This document shows, one piece after another, positions 1,442 through 12,954 of a stretch of DNA of 12,967 nucleotides. The notes under the pieces were generated by a model. It had not been told where the DNA came from. It searched no databases and saw only the letters and a list, made by a program, of their open reading frames with translations. Source of the DNA: an uncultured Mollicutes bacterium. Lineage in GTDB: Bacteria; Bacillota_I; Bacilli_A; RFN20; CAG-826. Made by a program: the position numbers and the translations under genes. The stretch lies in NCBI GenBank assembly GCA_937893635.1, contig CALBGF010000197.1:1-12967 (forward strand). Reading direction: 5' to 3'. Within the stretch, counting starts at the first letter, position 1; every line of letters starts with the position of its first letter.

Positions 1442-3772
1442 ATGGAAAACGAAAAAGAATTAATTGCACCTTTGGTGATTACTCGCTCACTCGTAGCGTT
1501 TCCAAGTAATCCAACTACTATTGAAGTAGTCCGTGAATCTAGTTTAGCAAGTATTGAAGCTTCTAAAGATTTTGATAATTGCGTTTTGCTTGTTTCACAA
1601 AAAAATCCTGATGTTGAAAATCCAACTGATGAAGATATTTATTATATTGGTACATTTTGTTGTGTTATTTCGGTAACTAAACTAAAAGAATACACCCGTG
1701 TTCGTTTAGATCCTCGCTATCGTATTAAAATTACATCAATGACTACTGGACCAGATGGATTATCACGTATTGCTACTTATGAACGTGTGGAAGATGTTAT
1801 GGGTGACCGCGTTGAAGAAGAAGCTCTTGTTAAAGCGATTATCCATGAACTTGAACAAATGCCGGAATTAATTAGTGTGTTACCTAAAGCCTTAATTAAT
1901 CAATTATCTAAAGGTGTATCCTCTAATCAATTATCTAATCTTTTATCTAATAATTTACCAATTGATCCTGCCCAAAAACAAAGTTTACTTGAAACAACTG
2001 ATGTTAATAAACGCTTAACAGTTCTTTTACAAATTTTAAATCAACAAAAAGTTATAAGCGAAGTTGAAAAAAAGATTAGTGCTGATGTGCGCGAATCAAC
2101 TGATAAATCACAACGTGAATATATTTTAAGAGAAAAATTAAAAGCTATTCGTAAAGAATTAGGTGAAGATGAAGATGCTAGCGATAGTGAATCTAAGATT
2201 TTAGAACGTCTTGATAATAATCCTTATCCAGAAAATATTAAAACAAAAGTTAAATCTGAACTTAAAAGATATCAAATGATGCCTCAAGCATCTTTAGAAA
2301 GTTCTATTATTAAGAACTACATTGATACTTTAATGGATTTACCTTGGTATCAAAACACTGAAGATAATGATGATTTAAAACACGCTCGTGAAATTCTTGA
2401 TGAAGATCATTATGGCTTAAAAGTAGTTAAAGATCGTATTGTCGAGTATTTAGCGGTTAAAAAGAAAACTGGTAACTTAAAAGCACCAATTATATGTTTA
2501 TATGGTGCACCTGGTGTTGGTAAAACATCTTTAGGAAGAAGTATTGCTCGTGCTTTAAACCGTAAGTTCCATAAAGTAGCCTTAGGTGGTATTTCTGATG
2601 AAGCGGAAATTAGAGGCCATCGCCGTACTTATGTTGGCGCAATGCCAGGTCGAATTATTGCGGGTATGCGTAAAGTAGGCGTTAATAACCCAGTATTTTT
2701 ACTTGATGAAGTTGATAAGTTAGCTAATTCCTATAAAGGTGATCCTGCTTCTGCATTACTTGAAGTATTAGATCCAGAACAAAATATCATGTTTAATGAT
2801 AATTATGTTGAAGAACCTTTTGACTTATCAAATGTCTTATTTATTGCTACCGCTAATGACATATCTAATATCCCTGGACCATTACGTGATCGTTTAGAAT
2901 TAATTGAAGTAAGTTCATATACAGTTACTGAAAAACTTCATATTGCTAAAGAACACTTAGTACCAAAGCAATTAAAACTTGCAGGTCTAGATGTTAATGA
3001 TGTTAAGTTTGAAGATAAAGCTATTTTATCTATTATCTATAAATATACACGCGAGGCTGGTGTTCGTAGCTTAGAACGTAAAATTGCTTCAATTTGCCGT
3101 AAAATAGTCGTTGAATTATTAAATGGTAAAAAAGCTAAAAAAGTGTTAGTTACGGAAAAGAAAGTCCGCGAATATTTAGGATTAGAACCATTCCCAGAAG
3201 AAAAGAAAGAAGATTTAGACCAAATTGGTGTTGTTAATGGCTTAGCTTATACACAATATGGTGGATCAATCTTACCAATTGAAACAACAACATACGTTGG
3301 TAAAGGTCGCTTAGTTTTAACTGGTAGTTTAGGTGATGTCATGAAAGAATCCGCAACGATTGCTTTAGACTATATCCGTGCGAATGCTAAAAAATATGAA
3401 ATTAATGATGAAATATTTGAAAAAAATGATATTCATATTCATTTCCCAGAAGGAGCAATTCCAAAAGATGGACCATCCGCAGGTGTTGCTATTACTACAG
3501 CATTAATTAGTTGCTTAACTAATCAATATGTTCGTAATGATGTTGCTATGACTGGTGAAGTTTCATTACGTGGTAAAGCTATTGCGATTGGCGGCTTAAA
3601 AGAAAAATCACTTGCTGCTCTTCGTAGCGGTATTAAAACTATCATCGTTCCAGTTGATAATAAACCTAACGTTGAAGAACTTCCTGATGAAGTTAAAAAT
3701 GGCTTAGAGATTATTTATATGACTTGCGTTGATGATGCTCTTAAAGTAGCATTTAGGAGCCAAAATGCTTAA
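1442..3772 (+). CDS. lon: ATP-dependent protease La (Lon)
   Basis: Lon is a cytoplasmic AAA+ protease that unfolds and degrades damaged and regulatory proteins. The 776-residue protein has the LonA layout. An N-terminal substrate-binding domain covers about 1-200, followed by a helical region to about 300. The AAA+ module has Walker A GAPGVGKT at 355-362 and Walker B FLLDEVDK with D422 and E423. The C-terminal serine protease domain has catalytic S679 in PKDGPSAG and K722 in GGLKEKS, the classical Ser-Lys dyad at the same numbers as in E. coli Lon. The start has an excellent Shine-Dalgarno, AAAAGGAGG at 1426-1434. The 3' end overlaps the following GTPase gene by 8 nt. If ClpXP is really missing from this genome, Lon would carry a larger share of cytosolic proteolysis. 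All catalytic residues are present. Confidence 0.98.
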   Translation: MENEKELIAPLVITRSLVAFPSNPTTIEVVRESSLASIEASKDFDNCVLLVSQKNPDVENPTDEDIYYIGTFCCVISVTKLKEYTRVRLDPRYRIKITSMTTGPDGLSRIATYERVEDVMGDRVEEEALVKAIIHELEQMPELISVLPKALINQLSKGVSSNQLSNLLSNNLPIDPAQKQSLLETTDVNKRLTVLLQILNQQKVISEVEKKISADVRESTDKSQREYILREKLKAIRKELGEDEDASDSESKILERLDNNPYPENIKTKVKSELKRYQMMPQASLESSIIKNYIDTLMDLPWYQNTEDNDDLKHAREILDEDHYGLKVVKDRIVEYLAVKKKTGNLKAPIICLYGAPGVGKTSLGRSIARALNRKFHKVALGGISDEAEIRGHRRTYVGAMPGRIIAGMRKVGVNNPVFLLDEVDKLANSYKGDPASALLEVLDPEQNIMFNDNYVEEPFDLSNVLFIATANDISNIPGPLRDRLELIEVSSYTVTEKLHIAKEHLVPKQLKLAGLDVNDVKFEDKAILSIIYKYTREAGVRSLERKIASICRKIVVELLNGKKAKKVLVTEKKVREYLGLEPFPEEKKEDLDQIGVVNGLAYTQYGGSILPIETTTYVGKGRLVLTGSLGDVMKESATIALDYIRANAKKYEINDEIFEKNDIHIHFPEGAIPKDGPSAGVAITTALISCLTNQYVRNDVAMTGEVSLRGKAIAIGGLKEKSLAALRSGIKTIIVPVDNKPNVEELPDEVKNGLEIIYMTCVDDALKVAFRSQNA

Positions 3773-4352
3773 TTTCCGCGGCGCTAAATTCATTAAAAGT
3801 GCGACATCAAAATTAGATAGACCAGAAAAGAAACTAAAAGAAGTATTATTTGTTGGTCGTTCTAATGTTGGTAAGTCTTCTTTAATCAACGCTTTAGTGG
3901 ATAATAAGTCTTTATGCTTTACATCTTCTAAACCTGGTCATACTAGATTACTTAACTATTTTGAAATTAAAGATAGTTGCTATTTAGTGGATGCGCCAGG
4001 ATATGGATATTCTAAAGCGGGTCATCAACATGATGAAAACTTTGCTAAAATGATGGAAGATTATTTTAGTGATAACAATGAACTTTCCTTAGTTGTTTTC
4101 TTAATTGATTCACGCCGTGAAGTAAGAGAAGAAGAAATGGATTTATTTAATTTATTTAATGATGATCATATTCCTTATGTTATCGTTCTTACTAAATGCG
4201 ATAAACTAAATCAAAGTGAAAAAGCTAAGGCAATTAAAGAGATTAATACTTCTTTAAGTCATGTTGATAAAAACAATATTATTTTTACTTCGATTAATGA
4301 TAAAAAATCAATTGAAAGTTTACAAAAATATATTGCTAATGCTATTAAATAA
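3765..4352 (+). CDS. ysxC: Ribosome biogenesis GTP-binding protein YihA/YsxC/EngB
   Basis: This is a TRAFAC-class GTPase needed for late assembly of the 50S ribosomal subunit. The 195-residue product is of normal family length. G1 is GRSNVGKS at 31-38. The family-specific G2 region is SSKPGHT, with Thr at 60. G3 is DAPGYG at 76-81, G4 is TKCD at 143-146, and the likely G5 lies near 174-176. The start codon lies inside lon, 8 nt before the end of its stop codon. Its Shine-Dalgarno AGGAG (3755-3759) is within the lon coding sequence, so the two genes are probably translationally coupled. The lon-ysxC pairing is standard in Bacilli. A strong terminator follows and ends the housekeeping unit. Confidence 0.96.
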   Translation: MLNFRGAKFIKSATSKLDRPEKKLKEVLFVGRSNVGKSSLINALVDNKSLCFTSSKPGHTRLLNYFEIKDSCYLVDAPGYGYSKAGHQHDENFAKMMEDYFSDNNELSLVVFLIDSRREVREEEMDLFNLFNDDHIPYVIVLTKCDKLNQSEKAKAIKEINTSLSHVDKNNIIFTSINDKKSIESLQKYIANAIK

Positions 4353-4366
4353 TTAAAATTTATGAT

Positions 4367-4399
4367 AAAACTCGAGTAAAAATTTGCTCGAGTTTTTTT
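4367..4399 (+). terminator. Strong Rho-independent terminator after ysxC
   Basis: AAAACTCGAG (4367-4376) pairs perfectly with CTCGAGTTTT (4387-4396). The stem can extend inward through T-G and A-T pairs to about 13 bp with a 4-nt loop. Seven T residues (4393-4399) follow. It separates the housekeeping genes from the accessory operon downstream, so that operon needs its own promoter. Confidence 0.92.
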
Positions 4400-4446
4400 A
4401 TGCGAAATTTACTAATATTCAAAAATGAAAAGGCTTACACTTTTTA

Positions 4447-4476
4447 TTGACAAAACGCTACGGGGGGGGGTATCAT
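4447..4476 (+). promoter_or_regulatory. Accessory-operon promoter with a poly-G spacer
   Basis: A perfect -35 hexamer TTGACA (4447-4452) and a -10-like hexamer TATCAT (4471-4476, 5 of 6 to TATAAT) are separated by 18 nt. Nine of those 18 nt are an unbroken G run directly against the -10. Predicted transcription start is about 4482-4484, leaving a leader of about 55 nt. This is the only good promoter in the 186-nt gap after the ysxC terminator, and the four downstream genes run from it without a clear classical terminator. The present 18-nt spacing is one above the 17-nt optimum, so loss of one G would be expected to strengthen it and larger changes to weaken it. Promoter assignment is from sequence match only. 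Confidence 0.8.
4462..4470 (+). repeat. Nine-G homopolymer tract, candidate phase-variation switch
   Basis: This is an uninterrupted run of nine G between the -35 and -10 boxes. I noticed no comparable G or C run elsewhere in this AT-rich window, so chance is a poor explanation. Runs of this length slip during replication. In Neisseria porA and the Treponema pallidum tpr genes, G tracts in or by the promoter alter expression through their length. The tract length given here may itself be a consensus over a mixed population, or a sequencing or assembly error. Confidence 0.85.
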
Positions 4477-4477
4477 A

Positions 4478-4528
4478 TTTTTGTAATTGTTTTTTTGACT
4501 AAACTGTAAGCGGTAACAATTACGAGAA
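4478..4528 (+). promoter_or_regulatory. Long inverted repeat in the operon leader
   Basis: GTAATTGTT (4483-4491) and AACAATTAC (4515-4523) are perfect 9-bp inverted arms around a 23-nt loop. With two wobble pairs the stem could reach 14 bp (4478-4491 with 4515-4528). The 5' arm begins at about the predicted transcription start, and the 3' arm ends against the Shine-Dalgarno region AAAGGAAA (4527-4534). It could act as a 5' stabilising hairpin, as a control on ribosome access, or at DNA level as a regulator-binding site. The loop and 3' arm contain the cre-like site. Confidence 0.55.
4505..4518 (+). promoter_or_regulatory. Catabolite-response element (cre)-like operator
   Basis: TGTAAGCGGTAACA fits the Gram-positive cre consensus TGWNANCGNTNWCA at every fixed position. 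It lies about 20-35 nt downstream of the predicted transcription start, where CcpA binding normally represses by blocking RNA polymerase. A local LacI-family regulator with a similar operator is an alternative. No regulator gene is present in the window. Such control is expected for a glycan-use operon. Confidence 0.65.
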
Positions 4529-4538
4529 AGGAAATTTT

Positions 4539-6782
4539 ATGATAAAAAAGAAAAATTCGAAAATGCTATTTGCTAGTTTGATGACTTTAATGGCACTTGG
4601 CATTGCTGGTTGTAACAACCAAACCTCTGAGTCAACAAGTAAAGGTGATTCAACATCTCCAAGTCTTGTTCCTAGTGTTTCAACATCAACGAAGCCATCA
4701 ACTTCGGAAACACCAAAGCCATCAACATCGGAAAAACCATCAGAAAGTACAAGTACTTCCTTAGTTCCAGAACATAATTGTGCACATATTTGTGTTCTTG
4801 ATAACAAATGCATGGATGATAGCTGTACAGATGATAAATGTAAGGATAAATGCTTAGGACATACTATTAGTGAAACTGCAACAATCTTAGAAGCAGAAAA
4901 TGGTATTATTGAAGGAACAATGACCGGAACTGCCGCGGATGATGCATTTATTGGAGCAAGAGATTCTAATAATGAAGATCATCCTACAAGTGGCGGAAAA
5001 GTAGTATTTAACTGGGCCGCTAAAGGAAACACAGTTACATGGAACTTTAAATTAACAGAGGCCATGAAAACTAAAGTTACTTTATGGTGTTGTGCTGGTC
5101 AAAACCAAAGCGCAACAGGATTAGGACTAAAAGTTAATGAGCAAGCTTATAATTGGAAAGAAGATGTCGTATTAGGTAAAGGATTTAGTGAAAATAAATG
5201 GTATTACTGGAATCCTATTACTGTTGATGTCGAATTAATAAAAGGAATAAATAAAGTAGTTTTATCTAATGAATCTGGAGAATCATGGAATTTAGACTCA
5301 TTAACATTAGAAAAATATGTTGAACCTACTCATACATGTGAACATGTTTGCCCTGAATGTGGTAAATGTATGGATAATGATTGCACAGATGATGTTTGTA
5401 AAGATAAATGTGTAGGACATATTAAGACTAATGACGTTATATTAGAAGCTGAAAATGGTAAAATCGCTGGTACTATGACTGGTAGTGGGGCTGATGATGC
5501 CTTTATTGGAGAAAGAAACTCTGATAATCCTGATCACCCTACTAGTGGCGGAAAAGTAGTATTTAACTGGGCGAAAAAAGATAATAGTATTACTTGGTAT
5601 GTAAATAGTAGTGAAGCATTAGAAAATGTCAAAGTAACATTATGGTGCTGTGCTGGTAGTGACCAAGATGCATCCGGCTTATCTTTATTAGCAAATGGCG
5701 ATGCTTCTGCTTGGAATGAAAGTAAAGTATTAGGAAAAGGATTTAGTGAAAATAAATGGTATTATTGGAATCCTATTACTACCACTATTAACTTAAATGA
5801 AGGAATGAATACTATTAAATTAGTTAATAATGGTGATTATTCTTGGAATATTGATAATTTAGTTTTAGCAGTAAAAGAAGGAGCAACTCTATCTTTAATA
5901 CACGTATGTGACCATGTTTGTGATGAATGTGGAAAATGTACTGATCCAAGTTGCACTGATGCTGCTTGTGCTGATAAATGTCCTGGTCATAGTTTAGCAT
6001 TTGTCGATGGCGTTGCAAGAATTGAATGTGAAAACTATGATTCCATCGATAGCGGTATTACCATTGGTAACGCTAATGAAAATGAAGAATTATCAGGCGG
6101 TAAATTTATTGGTGACTTTAACTCCCAAAGAAAAGCAACTTATAAAGTTACTTTAAAAGAAGCAACAACAGTATATTTAAACCTACGTGTTGCTTGCGGA
6201 CTTAACAATAATGATAATGGTGCAGTTGAATTACATGTAAATGGTACAAAAATTGGTAATTATGGCACAAAAACTGATTGGCGTGATTGGGCAACTGTTG
6301 AAAGCGCAATTTTCACTTTAAATAAAGGCGAAAATACAATCATTTTACAAGCACCATACGGATCTTACACAAATTTAGATTACTTTGACATCGTTAAAGT
6401 TAATGCATTTAATGAAAACAAAATGCGTTTAGAAGCTGAAAACTGCACAAACAATAGCGGTGCTACAATAAACGCTGATGGTACAGTAGGAGATTTTGGT
6501 TATCCTGATTATATTGAATTTGAAATTTTCTTAAAAGAAGAAGTAACAGTAGTAATGAACGCTAATATCGCATGCGGCCAAAATAATAGTGATAACGGCG
6601 CGATTGAATTACATGTAAATGGTACACATATTGGTAATTATGGTGCTGTTACTGGATGGAGTGATTATCAAGAAGTAATGACTACTTCATTTACTCTTAA
6701 CAAAGGTAAAAATACTATTAAGATTGCTTGCCCTTGGGGTTCAGCAACAAACCTTGATTATTTTGATTTAATTATTGCCTAA
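4539..6782 (+). CDS. Surface lipoprotein with four CBM6/35-like modules and three Cys-rich spacers
   Basis: This 747-residue exported lipoprotein probably captures glycans at the cell surface; no catalytic domain is visible. The signal peptide ends in lipobox IAGC with the lipidated Cys at 25, followed by a Ser/Thr/Pro linker (26-77). Next come Cys-rich unit 1 (79-108), CBM A (116-258), Cys-rich unit 2 (265-294), CBM B (300-444), Cys-rich unit 3 (455-484), CBM C (493-620) and CBM D (629-747). The CBM call rests on the typical LEAEN/IECEN openings, a VNGT turn, the KGxNTI strand and WNID or NLDYF endings of galactose-binding-like folds. A and B form one subtype with a vicinal Cys pair (184-185, 370-371); C and D form another. 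Units 2 and 3 follow C-x3-C-x2-C-x2-C-x4-C-x4-C-x3-C-x2-H; unit 1 lacks the third Cys. It heads the operon behind the poly-G promoter. The sugar ligand cannot be told from sequence. Confidence 0.85.
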   Translation: MIKKKNSKMLFASLMTLMALGIAGCNNQTSESTSKGDSTSPSLVPSVSTSTKPSTSETPKPSTSEKPSESTSTSLVPEHNCAHICVLDNKCMDDSCTDDKCKDKCLGHTISETATILEAENGIIEGTMTGTAADDAFIGARDSNNEDHPTSGGKVVFNWAAKGNTVTWNFKLTEAMKTKVTLWCCAGQNQSATGLGLKVNEQAYNWKEDVVLGKGFSENKWYYWNPITVDVELIKGINKVVLSNESGESWNLDSLTLEKYVEPTHTCEHVCPECGKCMDNDCTDDVCKDKCVGHIKTNDVILEAENGKIAGTMTGSGADDAFIGERNSDNPDHPTSGGKVVFNWAKKDNSITWYVNSSEALENVKVTLWCCAGSDQDASGLSLLANGDASAWNESKVLGKGFSENKWYYWNPITTTINLNEGMNTIKLVNNGDYSWNIDNLVLAVKEGATLSLIHVCDHVCDECGKCTDPSCTDAACADKCPGHSLAFVDGVARIECENYDSIDSGITIGNANENEELSGGKFIGDFNSQRKATYKVTLKEATTVYLNLRVACGLNNNDNGAVELHVNGTKIGNYGTKTDWRDWATVESAIFTLNKGENTIILQAPYGSYTNLDYFDIVKVNAFNENKMRLEAENCTNNSGATINADGTVGDFGYPDYIEFEIFLKEEVTVVMNANIACGQNNSDNGAIELHVNGTHIGNYGAVTGWSDYQEVMTTSFTLNKGKNTIKIACPWGSATNLDYFDLIIA
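4989..5572 (+). repeat. Direct DNA repeats between CBM A and CBM B
   Basis: A 29-nt stretch at 4989-5017 recurs identically at 5544-5572, an offset of 555 nt. It encodes the SGGKVVFNW region. The offset is a multiple of three, so a crossover between copies would delete or add one CBM plus Cys-rich unit (185 residues) in frame. The flanking DNA is much more diverged, which suggests recent duplication with local homogenisation or strong constraint. Confidence 0.85.
5169..5780 (+). repeat. Second pair of direct DNA repeats between CBM A and CBM B
   Basis: Positions 5169-5222 and 5727-5780 (54 nt each) differ at only two bases, at an offset of 558 nt. They encode the VLGKGFSENKWYYWNPIT segment of each module. 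The offset is again a multiple of three. It differs by one codon from the offset of the other repeat pair, which shows a one-residue indel between the modules. Confidence 0.85.
6226..6626 (+). repeat. Direct DNA repeat between CBM C and CBM D
   Basis: A 23-nt stretch at 6226-6248 is repeated exactly at 6604-6626, offset 378 nt (126 codons). It encodes the ELHVNGT turn. With neighbouring similarity it shows that the last two modules of the lipoprotein arose by duplication separately from modules A and B. Confidence 0.8.
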
Positions 6783-6849: not shown

Positions 6850-8976
6850 ATGAAAAATAAAGCGAAAATAATTAGTTTTTTATTAGCTTTTATTCCAGTT
6901 TTAGGAAATAGTAATTTTGTCACTTCTGTTTTAGCCGAAAATCATACTCATAATTACGTTAATAAACATTGTGAATGTGGTTCTTATTTATTAGAAGCTG
7001 AAGAAGGTATCATCAAAGGAACTAATTCTACTACAGGAACAACTGATGGATTTATTGCTGAAGCAACTTCTAATAATGCTAGTCATCCTACTAGTAACGG
7101 AAAAGTAGTAAGAAATTGGGGCGTAAACGGCAATACTATTACTTGGAAATTTAATCTTAATAAAGAACAAAAAGACACAAATATTCGTTTATGGGTAGGT
7201 GCTAAGTCAAATGATTTAAAAACAAGTAATTTATCCATAAGCGTTAATAATATCAATGCAACTTGGAAAAAAACTAGTGTTAATACTATTGGAAACTATA
7301 TGTTTTATTTTGCTGGAACAGAAGCAACTTTAAGCTTTCCAAAAGGAAATAATGAATTAACAATTACAAATAATAGCAATATAAATTGGAATATTGATTG
7401 TCTAGAATTAGAGTTTGATTCATCCACTAGTGTTAATAGTTTTATAGAAGGAGAGCCATTAGGAACATTAGATAGTGGTAATAGTGATTCAACAAGTTAT
7501 ACAAGTAGTATAAAAATTGAAGCGGAATACGCAACTAAAATTGAAGGAACAATTGGTAATGGTTCCCCGTCATTTTTAGAAGAAGATGATGAATGTTCTA
7601 ATGGCGGTTGTATTGCTAACTGGGGTAATGAGGGCGATAATATCGTTACATTTGAGTTTGAAAGTAGTAATGATGTTAATAGCGCTATTATCAAAATTGC
7701 TGTTGCGGGTAGTAATGAAGGAGCAGAATACGCAGATACCATTATTCCAAGAATTAATGGTGGTTCCGGCGGAGCGGCACCATTTGATCGTTACCCAGAT
7801 GTAGCAGGTATTGATATTACTAGTTCTGGTACATGGGGCGCTTTTAATGGTTGGTATAGTTTCGTAGAGATATCAACTCCTTCAATTAAATTAAATAAAG
7901 GCACTAATACATTTGAATTAGAATCATTTAATGGATATTCTGTTAATATTGATTATATTATTATTGAAACTTCAGAAAATACTAATTTTACATATACCAA
8001 TGTTGATCGTGGTGTTGGTGGTAAAGGTGGACCAATTACTTTAGAAGCTGAAAACGCAATTATTAAAGGAACTAGTAGCGATTCACAAGGTGTTGATGGT
8101 ATGATTCTTGAACGTCAATCATCTAATCCCGATATTCATGAGACTAGTGGTGGTAAATGTGTAGGTAATTTTGGAACTGTTAATAATAGCATTACTTGGA
8201 CTTTTAAAAGTAATGTTGATGTATCTTCATTTAAATTATCTCTTTGGGTAGCGTCTGCTTTTAGTGGTGGTAATATTAAAGATATATTATCATTTAAAAT
8301 TAATGATGAAGAAGCTAATTTTGATCAAACATTATTCCCAAGTTACCCAGGTAATGATAAATGGTATAACTGGGAAGAATTAACAATTTCTAATGCTAAA
8401 ATTAATCAAGGCGTGAATAAAATTGTTTTAACAAATACGAGTGGTTCTTCATTTAATGTTGATTGCATTCACTTAGAAGTACCAACAAGTTGTATTATTC
8501 GTGTTGATAACATTGATGTTACATCTCCAACAATCGGAATTATATATTTTACTAGTAATGTATTTGAAACATATGAAGATCTTGAATTTACATTTGAATA
8601 TTCGGATGATATAACTGAAAAAGAAAAATTATCTATATCAGTAAAAGTATATTTTGAATTTGGTACAAGTAAACAAGAAACTGTTACATCTATGAATAAT
8701 AAATTTAAACCTACAAAAACTGGAACTTATACCATAATTGTCACTATTAAAGATGAAGCAAATAATGAAACATCAAGAAAAAGAAACGTTGTTGTAGCAA
8801 AAGAAGGAAAGAATAAACCTAATACCCCAATTATCCCTGATAATCCAAATGGTGGCGTTGATGTACATAACATTAATGGAAGAGTACTTGGTGGATGGTT
8901 GACTTTTGCAATTTCTCTTCTTATTAGTGGCGGATTAATTGGTTATATGGTCTATAAAAACAAAAAAAGGATATAG
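6850..8976 (+). CDS. Secreted CBM/Ig-like protein with C-terminal membrane anchor
   Basis: This 708-residue protein is probably a second surface glycan-binding protein. A Sec signal peptide (1-29, likely cleaved after VLA) precedes a short His/Cys segment HTHNYVNKHCECG (32-44). Three CBM6/35-like modules follow: 47-190 (LLEAEEG to WNIDCLELE), 221-374 (IKIEAEY to VNIDYIIIE) and 396-544 (ITLEAEN to VNVDCIHLEV-like ending). An Ig-like beta domain covers about 552-650 (KTGTYTIIVTIKDEANNE). A Pro/Asn linker then leads to one membrane helix (about 681-701) and a basic tail, KNKKRI, so the protein faces outward. No LPXTG motif is present. Module 1 resembles CBM A and B of the upstream lipoprotein (HPTSNGKVV, WNID), so the two genes are paralogous in part. 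Shine-Dalgarno AAAAGGAG is at 6837-6844. No catalytic motif is recognised. Confidence 0.82.
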   Translation: MKNKAKIISFLLAFIPVLGNSNFVTSVLAENHTHNYVNKHCECGSYLLEAEEGIIKGTNSTTGTTDGFIAEATSNNASHPTSNGKVVRNWGVNGNTITWKFNLNKEQKDTNIRLWVGAKSNDLKTSNLSISVNNINATWKKTSVNTIGNYMFYFAGTEATLSFPKGNNELTITNNSNINWNIDCLELEFDSSTSVNSFIEGEPLGTLDSGNSDSTSYTSSIKIEAEYATKIEGTIGNGSPSFLEEDDECSNGGCIANWGNEGDNIVTFEFESSNDVNSAIIKIAVAGSNEGAEYADTIIPRINGGSGGAAPFDRYPDVAGIDITSSGTWGAFNGWYSFVEISTPSIKLNKGTNTFELESFNGYSVNIDYIIIETSENTNFTYTNVDRGVGGKGGPITLEAENAIIKGTSSDSQGVDGMILERQSSNPDIHETSGGKCVGNFGTVNNSITWTFKSNVDVSSFKLSLWVASAFSGGNIKDILSFKINDEEANFDQTLFPSYPGNDKWYNWEELTISNAKINQGVNKIVLTNTSGSSFNVDCIHLEVPTSCIIRVDNIDVTSPTIGIIYFTSNVFETYEDLEFTFEYSDDITEKEKLSISVKVYFEFGTSKQETVTSMNNKFKPTKTGTYTIIVTIKDEANNETSRKRNVVVAKEGKNKPNTPIIPDNPNGGVDVHNINGRVLGGWLTFAISLLISGGLIGYMVYKNKKRI

Positions 8977-8984
8977 GTGATATT

Positions 8985-11966
8985 ATGATATTAAATGGAA
9001 TATTAGATTGGGAAATTGTTCCTGGTTATCCTCTAAAAAGTTTTGATTGGATATTAGCTATTTATATTTTAGGTGTTGCATTATTAGCATTTGTCTTATT
9101 TTATTTTATTTATGTATTTATCTTTACCAAAAATAAAATGAGTAAAGACGAAGAAAAAGAAGCAAATGAACAAATTGCTAAAATTAATAAACTAAATAAA
9201 CAAGAGAAAAAAGATTCAATAAAAAAATTAGATAAGAAAACAAAACGTTTACGTAATTGGAAAATTATGAAATTACCTCTTTCGATTACTTGTGGAGTTT
9301 GTATAGCAGTTTCTTGTATTGCTGCACCTGTACTTTCTACAACTTGGGAAGCGCTTATGCAAGCCTTAAATAAAAAGACAGGCGGTAATAACGATAGTGA
9401 AGCAGCGCGACTTGCTATTGGAGAAAGTAAAGAAAATGTTGTAACTTTAGAAAAAGAAGGAGCAGTATTACTACGTAATAACAATGATGTACTTCCATTA
9501 AACAAAGAAACAAATAATAAAGTAAACATTTTTGGTAGTTCCGCATTTGGTATGCTTTATGGCGGAGGCGGTTCCGGTGTATTTGTTACTAATAGCACTT
9601 ATAATGGTAACGATTTCCACGCAACAAGATTTGAAAAGGCAATGTTAGATGAAGGTTTTGAATATAATATGGATATTTATAACCTTGTTGCTAATTATTA
9701 TGATAAAAAAACATATAGCATTAATGAAAGTAATTATGATATATCTTGTCAATATAATGCCTTCCAAGGTAATACCTATGATAAGAATGGTAATTTATTA
9801 ATTGCACCAACCAAATTCCCATATGATAACGAACCAGAAGTAAAGGCCTATACTCAAACATATCCAAGTTTAAATGGCAAAACTTTGCTTGATAGCGCTA
9901 AAGAATATAGTGATGTAGCTATTTATGCTGTTTCTCGTGCAGGTTCAGAAGATACTGATTTAAATCATGATTTATGTAAATTAACAAGTCGAGAAGCCGA
10001 TATGATTAATTTCTTAGCCGAAAACTTTGATAAAGTAATTATTTTAATTAATTCATCAAATCCTATGGAATTAAAATTATTAGATCAAGAAGGCATTGAT
10101 AGTGTATTATGGATTGGACACCCAGGTTTAACAGGTAATAAAGCTGTTGCAAAAATTATATCTGGTGAATATAATCCATCTGGTAAAATGGCGGATACTT
10201 GGGCTTATGATATTACAAGTGCGCCATCATTCCAATCATTTGGACCAGACACAACTAAATATAGTTCCGCATTAGGTAAAAGTATTGTTGAATATAAAGA
10301 AGGCATTTATGTTGGTTATCGTTATTACACAACTAGAGCCTATGAAGATAATACTTTTAATTATGATGATTATGTGCAATATTCCTTTGGTGAAGGATAT
10401 TCCTATACAACATTTGAAAAACATATCTCTGAATATGAATTTGATGAAGAAACGAATAAACTATCTGTACAAGTAGCAGTGAAAAACACTGGTGATGTAG
10501 CAGGTAAAGAAGTAGTGGAACTATATTTAACCGCTCCATATACTAAAGGTGGTATTGAAAAAGCTTATGTCGAATTAGCAGGTTATGCTAAAACTAATGA
10601 ACTTAAACCTAATGAAACATATTATGCACGTATTGATATTGATTTAGAAGATTTAGCTTCTTGGGATACTAATAATGGTAATTATGTTTTAGAAAAAGGT
10701 ACATATGTTCTTTCTCTTCGTGATGACTGTAATACTTTAACTAAAGTTACGGGAAGTAATAAAAATACAATTACTTTTGAATATAAAAATGATGTCAGAT
10801 TCTTAAGCGGAGATGGCAGAGCTAATTATAAAAATCAATTTAGTGATTGTGAATATGGTCCGCATCAAGATAAGATTCAATATATGACCCGTAGTGATTT
10901 TGCAGGTACTTTCCCAAAAACATCTGACATTGACACTAATGATATATCAGATAACGCCAAAAACGCTTTAAAGAATAAATCATATAATACTGACCAAACA
11001 TTAACTGGTAATACCGATTTAAATCAAAAGAATGGTTTAACATTACGTGATTTAAAAGGCGCTGATTATGATGATCCACGTTGGGAGCAACTCTTAGCGC
11101 AATTATCTAAACAAGAATTAATTGATTTAGTTGATAATGGTGGTTTCCAAACTATTAAAATAGATTCAATTAGTAAACGTTTAACTTATGATGATGATGG
11201 TCCAGCTTCAATTCAAGTTAAAGGAACTGGCTATGTTGGTGAAGTGGTAATAGCGTCAACTTGGAATTTAGATGCTGCTAAATTAATGGGTGAATCAATT
11301 GGTAAAGAAGGAGCCGCTATGGGACTAACTGGTTGGTATGCACCAGGGCTTAATATCCATCGCTGCGCAACTGGCGGAAGAAACTTTGAATATTATAGTG
11401 AAGATCCAATTCTTTCTGGAAGTATGGGTGGATATGTTGCGAAAGGCACTGCTAAGTATGGTGTATTTACTTATGCTAAACATATTGCTCTTAATGACCA
11501 AGAAACTGAACGTCAAAATTTAACTGTTTGGGCTAATGAACAATCAATACGTCAAATCTATTTACGTCCTTTTGAAATTTATGTTAAAGAAGGCGGATTA
11601 GGATTTATGTCATCATTCTCACGTATTGGTAGCGTTTGGAGCGGATCACACGGTTTCCTTAATAGCGTATGTCGTGATGAATGGGGATTTAAAGGCGTCG
11701 TAATCACTGACTGGATTAATCCAAACTTAATGCCTGTTAATATGGGCATTCGTGGTGGAAATGATTTATGGCTACTTAAAAACACCATTAGCGGTGCTTC
11801 TAAATTAGCAAATGAAACACCTAGTGACGCAATTATATTATTAAAAAATGCTGCTCATCATATTCTTTATGCCTGCGCTAATTCAAACTGTGTTTGGACA
11901 GAAGAAGAATACCATGAATTAGGAGTCAATGTTGACTTCTCACAAATGGGTTATGACAATATTTAG
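8985..11966 (+). CDS. Membrane-anchored, domain-swapped glycoside hydrolase family 3 enzyme
   Basis: This is probably a beta-glycosidase acting outside the membrane; the sugar specificity is unknown. The 993-residue protein starts with a membrane helix (22-47), a Lys-rich charged loop (48-96) and a second helix (97-118). By the positive-inside rule the loop is cytoplasmic and the enzyme external. The GH3 C-type alpha/beta sandwich comes first (about 146-406: VLLRNNNDVLPL, WIGHPG, NPSGKMADTW). A fibronectin III-like domain follows (about 473-585), and the catalytic TIM-barrel-type domain is last (about 690-935). This reverses the usual order, as in Ruminococcus albus-type beta-glucosidases. 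Barrel motifs are DDGP (737-740), GRNFEYYSEDP (798-808), KH (832-833) and GFKGVVITDW with nucleophile D909. E322 in GSEDTDL is a candidate acid/base. Shine-Dalgarno AGGTGA (8975-8980) overlaps the preceding stop codon, implying coupled translation. Confidence 0.9.
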   Translation: MILNGILDWEIVPGYPLKSFDWILAIYILGVALLAFVLFYFIYVFIFTKNKMSKDEEKEANEQIAKINKLNKQEKKDSIKKLDKKTKRLRNWKIMKLPLSITCGVCIAVSCIAAPVLSTTWEALMQALNKKTGGNNDSEAARLAIGESKENVVTLEKEGAVLLRNNNDVLPLNKETNNKVNIFGSSAFGMLYGGGGSGVFVTNSTYNGNDFHATRFEKAMLDEGFEYNMDIYNLVANYYDKKTYSINESNYDISCQYNAFQGNTYDKNGNLLIAPTKFPYDNEPEVKAYTQTYPSLNGKTLLDSAKEYSDVAIYAVSRAGSEDTDLNHDLCKLTSREADMINFLAENFDKVIILINSSNPMELKLLDQEGIDSVLWIGHPGLTGNKAVAKIISGEYNPSGKMADTWAYDITSAPSFQSFGPDTTKYSSALGKSIVEYKEGIYVGYRYYTTRAYEDNTFNYDDYVQYSFGEGYSYTTFEKHISEYEFDEETNKLSVQVAVKNTGDVAGKEVVELYLTAPYTKGGIEKAYVELAGYAKTNELKPNETYYARIDIDLEDLASWDTNNGNYVLEKGTYVLSLRDDCNTLTKVTGSNKNTITFEYKNDVRFLSGDGRANYKNQFSDCEYGPHQDKIQYMTRSDFAGTFPKTSDIDTNDISDNAKNALKNKSYNTDQTLTGNTDLNQKNGLTLRDLKGADYDDPRWEQLLAQLSKQELIDLVDNGGFQTIKIDSISKRLTYDDDGPASIQVKGTGYVGEVVIASTWNLDAAKLMGESIGKEGAAMGLTGWYAPGLNIHRCATGGRNFEYYSEDPILSGSMGGYVAKGTAKYGVFTYAKHIALNDQETERQNLTVWANEQSIRQIYLRPFEIYVKEGGLGFMSSFSRIGSVWSGSHGFLNSVCRDEWGFKGVVITDWINPNLMPVNMGIRGGNDLWLLKNTISGASKLANETPSDAIILLKNAAHHILYACANSNCVWTEEEYHELGVNVDFSQMGYDNI

Positions 11967-11976
11967 AGGTGCTCTT

Positions 11977-12954
11977 ATGAAAAATAAATACAAATCAATT
12001 ATTTTATTAATGGGTTTACTAGCGGTTACTTCGTGCAATAAAAATCCTGCTAGTACATCAAACTCTTCCTCAACTTCAAATTCTAGTAGTGGTAATACCG
12101 AAGTTGAAGTTAATAAATCAATCACAGTCATGTCTTGTAACCTTGATCAAGGACACCAAAATAACAACTATTACCATGAATTAGTAAAAGAACAAATTGT
12201 TAGTGTCATGCCTGATTTACTTGGGGTACAAGAAGAAGGAGAAGGTTGGACACTTGCTTTAGAAAGTAGTCTAGAAGAATATGGTTATCAACATATTTAT
12301 CAATCTCGTGGCGGTAGTTTTCCAGAAGCTAGTGGTATCTTTATTAAATTAGATCGTTTTATTATTAAAGAAAGCGGAACATTTTGGTTTGGTGATGATG
12401 AAAATGCCTCAAGCGGATATATTGCTTCCGAATGGGGTGCATCATTCCCCCGTGTATGTTCATGGGCTTTATTAACCGATCGATATACCAATAAAGATAT
12501 AAGTTATTTTAATGCTCATTTAGAGTATAACCATGCTTATGGAAATATGAATGGTGAAGCGACAGAAACAAATAATACTAAATTATGTCGTAAAAATTCT
12601 TGCTTACAAGTAATTAATAATATGAAAAAACTTAATGTTCCTGGTTTCTTTACGGGTGATTTAAATTATTGGCGCGAAGAAGAAAATGAAACATATCAAG
12701 CATGTTTAGAATATTTTGATGATTCTTGGGCAAGTTATAAAGATAGCCAAAAAATGTGTACTTTTCATAATTATGGAAAAGAATTAGATGAATCAACACG
12801 TGAACATCCTTATTCACCAATTGATTATATATTCTCTACCAAAGATAAATTTGAAATTAATAACTTCATTATTATGAATAATGAGGGAAACAAAGAAAGT
12901 GATTTTGCTAGTGATCATTTCTTCGTACACGCTAATTTCTCTTATAAAGAATAG
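11977..12954 (+). CDS. Lipoprotein of the endonuclease/exonuclease/phosphatase fold
   Basis: This metal-dependent phosphoesterase-fold protein is anchored to the outer face of the membrane. The 325-residue product has a signal peptide with lipobox VTSC (lipidated Cys 20), then a Ser/Asn/Thr linker (23-40). The EEP domain (about 48-322) keeps the family landmarks: N55 in MSCNL, metal ligand E86 in LLGVQEE, H181 in NAHLE, D228 and N230 in GDLN, D283 in PIDYIF, and D313-H314 in SDHFF. The fold serves nucleases, sphingomyelinases and sugar or inositol phosphatases, so the substrate is open. The frame is open upstream to an ATG at 11929, but the ATG at 11977 is preferred. It follows AGAGGTG (11965-11971), leaves only 10 nt after the GH3 stop, and begins a proper lipoprotein signal. 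Its place in a glycan operon suggests it removes a phosphate or phosphodiester substituent, or acts as a nuclease. This is inference. Confidence 0.87.
   Translation: MKNKYKSIILLMGLLAVTSCNKNPASTSNSSSTSNSSSGNTEVEVNKSITVMSCNLDQGHQNNNYYHELVKEQIVSVMPDLLGVQEEGEGWTLALESSLEEYGYQHIYQSRGGSFPEASGIFIKLDRFIIKESGTFWFGDDENASSGYIASEWGASFPRVCSWALLTDRYTNKDISYFNAHLEYNHAYGNMNGEATETNNTKLCRKNSCLQVINNMKKLNVPGFFTGDLNYWREEENETYQACLEYFDDSWASYKDSQKMCTFHNYGKELDESTREHPYSPIDYIFSTKDKFEINNFIIMNNEGNKESDFASDHFFVHANFSYKE

Follow-up and report, generated by a model that had tools for sequence, protein, structure and literature searches.

The promoter and the genes around it

The window, by which we mean the whole stretch of 12,967 bases that was analysed, contains a predicted promoter followed by four codirectional genes; all window coordinates given here refer to the + strand. 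Upstream of the promoter are three genes. They encode trigger factor, a protease that its sequence suggests is of the Lon type, and an EngB-type GTPase (3765..4352), the last of which was identified by its translation, a domain search and an EngB comparison, and whose gene is here called engB after its family. This gene is followed by a terminator-like hairpin with a T run (4363..4400, folding at -16.2 kcal/mol in ViennaRNA), which is absent from the list returned by a terminator scan.

The promoter consists of the -35 hexamer TTGACA (4447..4452), a 9-nt left spacer AAACGCTAC (4453..4461), a tract of nine G nucleotides (4462..4470) and, directly adjoining the tract, the -10 hexamer TATCAT (4471..4476). 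This order was established by direct reading and by script, and a promoter scan returned the same pair of hexamers, with 11 of 12 consensus matches. The -35/-10 spacer is thus 18 nt long, exactly as in the preliminary description, which had reported TTGACA, an 18-nt spacer with nine G and TATCAT. We infer that the two hexamers form a working promoter, with the G tract as the proposed slippage element. The same description had called the tract improbable by chance, and the statistics agree: the next longest G run in the 12,967 bases is 4 and the longest C run is 5, approximately 0.003 runs of at least nine G or C are expected in the window from base composition, and a dinucleotide model likewise gives 0.003 expected G runs of at least nine.

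Between the -10 hexamer and the first ATG, a pattern search found a perfect match, TGNAANCGNTNNCA (4505..4518), to the consensus of cre-type (catabolite control) boxes. This is the only match in the window, and shuffles of the whole window gave a mean of 0.08, with at least one match in 14 of 200. The cre-like box may place the operon under catabolite control. A search with the CcpA model TIGR01481 had hits in all six relatives searched, none of the six above the cut-off. A sequence resembling a ribosome-binding site, GAGAAAGGAAA (4524..4534, by eye), precedes the ATG.

The four genes are separated by gaps of 67, 8 and 10 nt. The first (4539..6782) encodes a lipoprotein-like protein of 747 amino acids, with two CBM6 stretches found by domain search and with a signal and three Cys-rich modules recognized by eye. 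The second (6850..8976) encodes a surface protein of 708 amino acids with a polysaccharide-lyase-type CBM-like domain and, by eye, a C-terminal membrane anchor. The third (8985..11966) encodes a GH3 glycosidase of 993 amino acids, with a membrane anchor seen by eye at its N-terminus; in this enzyme the order of the domains is swapped, the C-terminal domain preceding the N-terminal domain. The fourth (11977..12954, start codon by eye) encodes a lipoprotein-like protein whose match to the endonuclease/exonuclease/phosphatase family is weak and below the Pfam cut-off. The signal and anchor segments suggest that the products of the operon are located at the cell surface. The preliminary description of a ‘surface glycan operon’ therefore needs to be divided: the surface proteins stand, and the operon looks like one for carbohydrate binding and degradation (CBM, GH3), unlike one for glycan synthesis.

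As to the distribution of the first protein, a 94% identical lipoprotein is present in public data (P0001, 48 member sequences), and the protein has weak matches, to its N-terminal region only, in two of five near genomes. Its Cys-rich module of about 27 residues (CxHxC...CxKCxxxxCxxxxCxxKCxGH-like, three copies by eye) has similar counterparts near the N-termini of many otherwise unlike proteins among 39 homologues.

The promoter layout recurs in related genomes

The host is AT-rich and Bacilli/Mollicutes-like. When EngB was compared with 224 genomes of the G001 family, G077 and G024 (77% each), G055 (71%) and G094 (66%) matched best, and by this comparison the window probably belongs to the order of the G001 relatives. 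The preliminary description had proposed looking for other TTGACA-poly-G-TATNAT promoters, and we ran such a search in relatives. The pattern was TTGACA, 2-14 nt, a G run, 0-6 nt and TANNNT, with a minimum run of six G in the searches of the G002 and G001 families and of seven in those of the order, class and phylum; the control was the reversed pattern in the same genomes. For the G002 family, 8 of 18 genomes have the layout (control, 0), and for the G001 family 34 of 196 (control, 3). In the wider searches it is present in 48 of 279 genomes of the relatives’ order, at 98 sites (control, 0), in 47 of 395 of a class draw (control, 3) and in 16 of 215 of a phylum draw (control, 2). The phylum draw adds little, since 15 of its 16 matching genomes had already matched in the narrower searches. 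By the same pattern search, 231 of the 279 genomes of the order lack the layout.

The order and class searches collapsed to 192 listed sites in 82 genomes; a genome of the order that the class draw also included was counted once. Several matches to one -35 hexamer were merged into one, normally by keeping the nearest -10; for three sites in G496 the match ending in TATAAT was kept, and a fourth is listed only with a nearer TANNNT, TATAAT being present there as well. For G372, 10 of the 13 counted matches are among those listed.

The listed sites share a regular layout. The left spacer is exactly 9 nt, its commonest length and that of the window, at 83 of the 192 sites, the tract adjoins the -10 hexamer at 142, and the tract has 8-11 G at 175. 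The total spacer is 17-20 nt at 135 sites, and at 152 the -10 hexamer has at least five of the six consensus bases. At least three sites occur in each of 26 genomes, with a maximum of 10 among the sites listed, and eight genomes have 6-10 listed sites each. The layout in the window is thus one of a large set and not a lone curiosity. In G555, five promoter-like sites have TTGACA directly followed by ten G and TAYATT, at a spacing of only 10; these sites do not conform to the spacer model, and their true -10 may be a different one. We also considered a phage or mobile origin of the promoter, and a scan of viral contigs for one pattern (9-nt left spacer, at least eight G, TATNAT) gave no matches.

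Tract lengths differ between near-identical promoters

Among groups of sites that share a left spacer, the number of G nucleotides is unequal in 9 of 15 groups within genomes and in 5 of 9 groups across genomes. One pair in G602 is identical at 65 of 65 flanking bases, yet one copy has eight G and the other nine. Unequal G numbers were found in 6 of 21 close pairs in G602, 3 of 6 in G372, the single pair in G269 and none of the one pair in G496, and equal numbers in 15 of 21 in G602, 3 of 6 in G372 and the one pair in G496; all six unequal pairs in G602 involve a single copy with eight G. Under the same rule there are no close pairs in G010, G332 and G490. Tract length thus differs between otherwise identical copies in the genomes of relatives.

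Contig 6 of G602 (L200-L201) has seven genes for secreted proteins in tandem, and before each of them stands a near-identical promoter, with eight G in one case and nine in the other six. In G372 (L202-L210), ten promoters with nine or ten G were read. The downstream frame was readable for eight of them, and in seven of these eight cases it encodes one of a set of paralogous membrane-anchored proteins.

A census of G tracts that does not presuppose a promoter

We also took every tract of at least eight G in nine related genomes, with no promoter required beforehand. Four genomes (G010, G012, G014 and G015) had been chosen for their pattern matches, and four (G024, G077, G055 and G094) as the nearest by EngB, though matches in them were already known; G073 had been chosen only as a neighbour of the EngB-nearest genomes in the list. 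An automatic rule divided the 56 tracts into 27 promoter-like, 14 coding and 15 other; for the five genomes G024, G077, G055, G094 and G073, 7 of 17 tracts are promoter-like. TTGACA at most 20 nt upstream together with a TANNNT starting 0-3 nt downstream was found at 25 of the 56 tracts, compared with a mean of 0.07 and a maximum of 2 for shuffled flanks, and for 22 tracts the distance to an upstream TTGACA is exactly 9 nt (0.02 for shuffled flanks).

The genes downstream of these promoters show a modest surface bias. A lipobox or membrane segment is present in 18 of 25 of them and in 139 of 326 neighbouring ORFs, a control that is biased (Fisher p 0.006). For the lipobox alone the counts are 6 of 25 and 51 of 326; the regular expression used the first match only, at least one start of lipoprotein type (L178) escaped it, and the counts are unadjusted for this.

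A Pfam scan covered seven of the 14 proteins with a coding tract, and five of the seven passed the cut-off. In these five the tract lies inside a type I specificity subunit (HsdS; L131, 5599-6723), a DNA methylase (L135, 4631-6376), an Eco57I-type methylase (L168, 13449-15296), an FkbH-like protein (L137) and a glycosyltransferase (L174); the match for the protein at L140 was below the cut-off, and that at L161 had no Pfam matches. Methylase and specificity genes are classical targets of phase variation, and the G tracts in restriction-modification genes suggest that methylation is phase-variable in these bacteria. The contig ends are a further place where tracts occur: 9 of the 56 lie within 350 nt of one, versus 1.5 expected. 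Mixed tract lengths or the repetition of promoters may have interrupted the assemblies there, and we take this as a hint only.

The preliminary description had put forward the window promoter as a candidate phase-variable promoter. That proposal gains support from the 192 listed sites in 82 genomes, from the unequal tract lengths in near-identical promoters and from the G tracts inside restriction-modification, FkbH-like and glycosyltransferase genes.

Is the tract a fixed signal, a relic or an accident?

The G tract could instead be a fixed signal without switching. It might be bound by a regulator or by an alternative sigma factor, or it might be stiff and in this way adjust the strength of the promoter. 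The regular layout, with its 9-nt left spacer and its tract against the -10 hexamer, is in keeping with such a signal, as is the relation between the tract and its flanks. Over the listed sites, flank length and G number have a correlation of -0.009, and the variance is 7.11, compared with 7.16 when shuffled, so we found no compensation by which a fixed overall spacing would be maintained. Since flank length fails to compensate for G number, there is no visible sign that spacing is kept constant. This is what would be expected of a switch sampled at random, and equally of a spacer whose length is irrelevant, and it is the point at which the comparative argument is weakest. A fixed signal is nonetheless at odds with the unequal lengths among near-identical copies. 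It is also at odds with the variable position of the tract inside the spacer, which differs in G496 and G268. In G496 the tract begins one base after the -35 hexamer and the remaining spacer lies behind it, with TATAAT at a spacer of 15-16, still close to a functional distance, in all four sites read (a nearer TANNNT is also present in three of the four); this arrangement points to distance rather than position as what matters. Moreover, a promoter signal leaves unexplained the G tracts of similar length inside coding regions, including restriction-modification genes. We therefore consider a fixed signal unlikely, though it is the most probable of the alternatives.

A second alternative is that a promoter that once switched is now locked, fixed or silent, in the species of the window. 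The place orthologous to the window promoter bears on this. In G077, G024 and G094 the stretches after engB hold other genes, and such an operon is absent from them. In G055, engB is followed by TTGACAAAATGCTAC, a broken 7-nt tract and TACAAT, with a spacer of 16, and then by a lipoprotein-like gene; inspection by eye shows that in the assembly the apparent start of this gene does not lead into an open frame. From this comparison, the promoter would already have existed when the lineages of G055 and the window separated, its tract can apparently decay, and the gene that it serves appears to change. The broken tract in G055 and the interrupted tracts in G077, G060 and G076 are what a relic would look like, but the window tract is a pure run of nine G, inside the 8-11 range of 175 of the 192 listed sites, and we regard a locked promoter in the window as very improbable. 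Finally, although homopolymers are error-prone in assemblies and AT-rich DNA often contains pairs that resemble -35 and -10 hexamers (mean of 1.2 per shuffle of the 231-nt promoter stretch, both strands), it is barely conceivable that a G run fell by chance, or through an assembly artefact, between promoter-like hexamers, given the expectation of about 0.003 G or C runs of at least nine in the window, the absence of the reversed pattern from the 279 genomes with 98 sites, and the full layout at 25 of 56 tracts against 0.07 in shuffles.

Relation to known phase-variable promoters

Phase variation of the porA and tp0126 type is characterized by a homopolymer tract that lies between the -35 and -10 hexamers, and the predicted promoter of the window has such a tract. 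In Neisseria meningitidis, the promoter of the surface protein gene porA has a G tract between -35 and -10, and expression is graded by one-G steps, the amount of protein at the surface being high with 11 G, approximately 2-fold lower with 10 G and 13-fold lower with 9 G (PMC3639595). The analogy with porA drawn in the preliminary description is correct, in that both promoters have a tract in the 9-11 G range within the spacer of a surface-protein promoter (PMC3639595). Unlike the window genes, porA encodes a porin of an unrelated Gram-negative bacterium. That description had also invoked the tpr promoters of Treponema. The genus was well chosen, and within it tp0126 is the closer parallel: tp0126 of Treponema pallidum has, like the window promoter, a poly-G between -35 and -10, and is transcribed best at 17 nt (PMC7864442). 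The length of tprL tracts in vivo ranges between 7 and 11 G, and transcription of tprL starts at the fourth base after the tract (PMC7864442). The nine G of the window fall within the 7-11 G range reported as varying for porA and tprL. Whereas tp0126 and tpr are outer-membrane genes of a spirochaete, the commonest layout here is -35, 9 nt, 8-11 G and -10, in an AT-rich, Bacilli/Mollicutes-like lineage.

Other systems are more distant. In Neisseria, the product of fetA is a receptor in the outer membrane. Gut bacteria have invertible promoters that switch surface genes at random, through DNA inversion by a recombinase and not through slippage. In the pilus switch of Bifidobacterium breve the G tracts reportedly lie in coding sequence. 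As in the window, a homopolymer controls spacer length in the fetA promoter, but there the tract is poly-C; gonococcus strain NCCP11945 has three transcriptional phase-variable genes (PMC5320596). The B. breve switch resembles our case in concerning a gut commensal, slippage and a surface structure, although in another phylum (PMC9187656). We found no report of such promoters in the window lineage among titles and abstract starts of the open-licence literature, which is weak evidence of absence; a word search in a 2025 review of phase variation did not return the words Firmicutes, Gram-positive or uncultur- (PMC11868660). The mechanism is already known, and what appears to be new is the host lineage, the copy number and the glycan-capture cargo with its cre-like box.

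Proposed mechanism and its meaning for the lineage

We propose that the window promoter is read by the housekeeping sigma factor, and that its -35/-10 distance would be set by the slippage-prone G tract. Replication slippage would add or remove one G at a time and so move the spacer around its optimum, from 17 nt with eight G, through the 18 nt with nine G seen in the window, to 19 nt with ten G. Since the hairpin behind engB should shield the operon from transcription upstream, expression of the operon would depend on the G-tract promoter. Transcription of the four-gene glycan-capture operon would then be switched on and off, or raised and lowered, by chance and reversibly from one daughter cell to the next, and the cre-like box after the -10 hexamer may add repression that depends on sugar. 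As judged from sequence comparison, the window promoter is very probably a slippage-controlled promoter like those of porA and tp0126 and one of a lineage-wide set. At the window locus itself, slippage would be expected in the living population, and tract length would be expected to alter transcription. Taken as a whole, we hold this account, a slippage-set spacer with random, reversible control of the operon, to be the best explanation, and with good confidence. The promoter kept after engB in G055 speaks for it; against it count the close pairs with equal G numbers, the 231 of 279 order genomes that lack the layout, the other genes behind engB in G077, G024 and G094, the modest surface bias and the missing compensation.

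A wider reading, which we judge to be evenly poised between right and wrong, is that of a class-wide transcriptional phasome. Its cassette (TTGACA, about 9 nt, 8-11 G, TATAAT) would have been copied to places before lipoproteins, surface-protein arrays, acyltransferases and glycan-capture operons, and would operate together with frameshift switches that G tracts form in restriction-modification genes. The window would add a cre box, thus coupling random switching to sugar sensing in a bet-hedged foraging for glycans.

In the literature cited here, G-tract switching in promoter spacers has been studied in few pathogens, with a handful of promoters each, whereas here eight genomes have 6-10 listed sites each. 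The host lineage is known here mainly from assemblies, including metagenome assemblies, and the single G count that an assembly gives for a genome may record just one state of a population that is mixed. If the proposal is true, variation from cell to cell in surface proteins and glycan use would be readable, without culture, from the G counts in existing metagenome reads.
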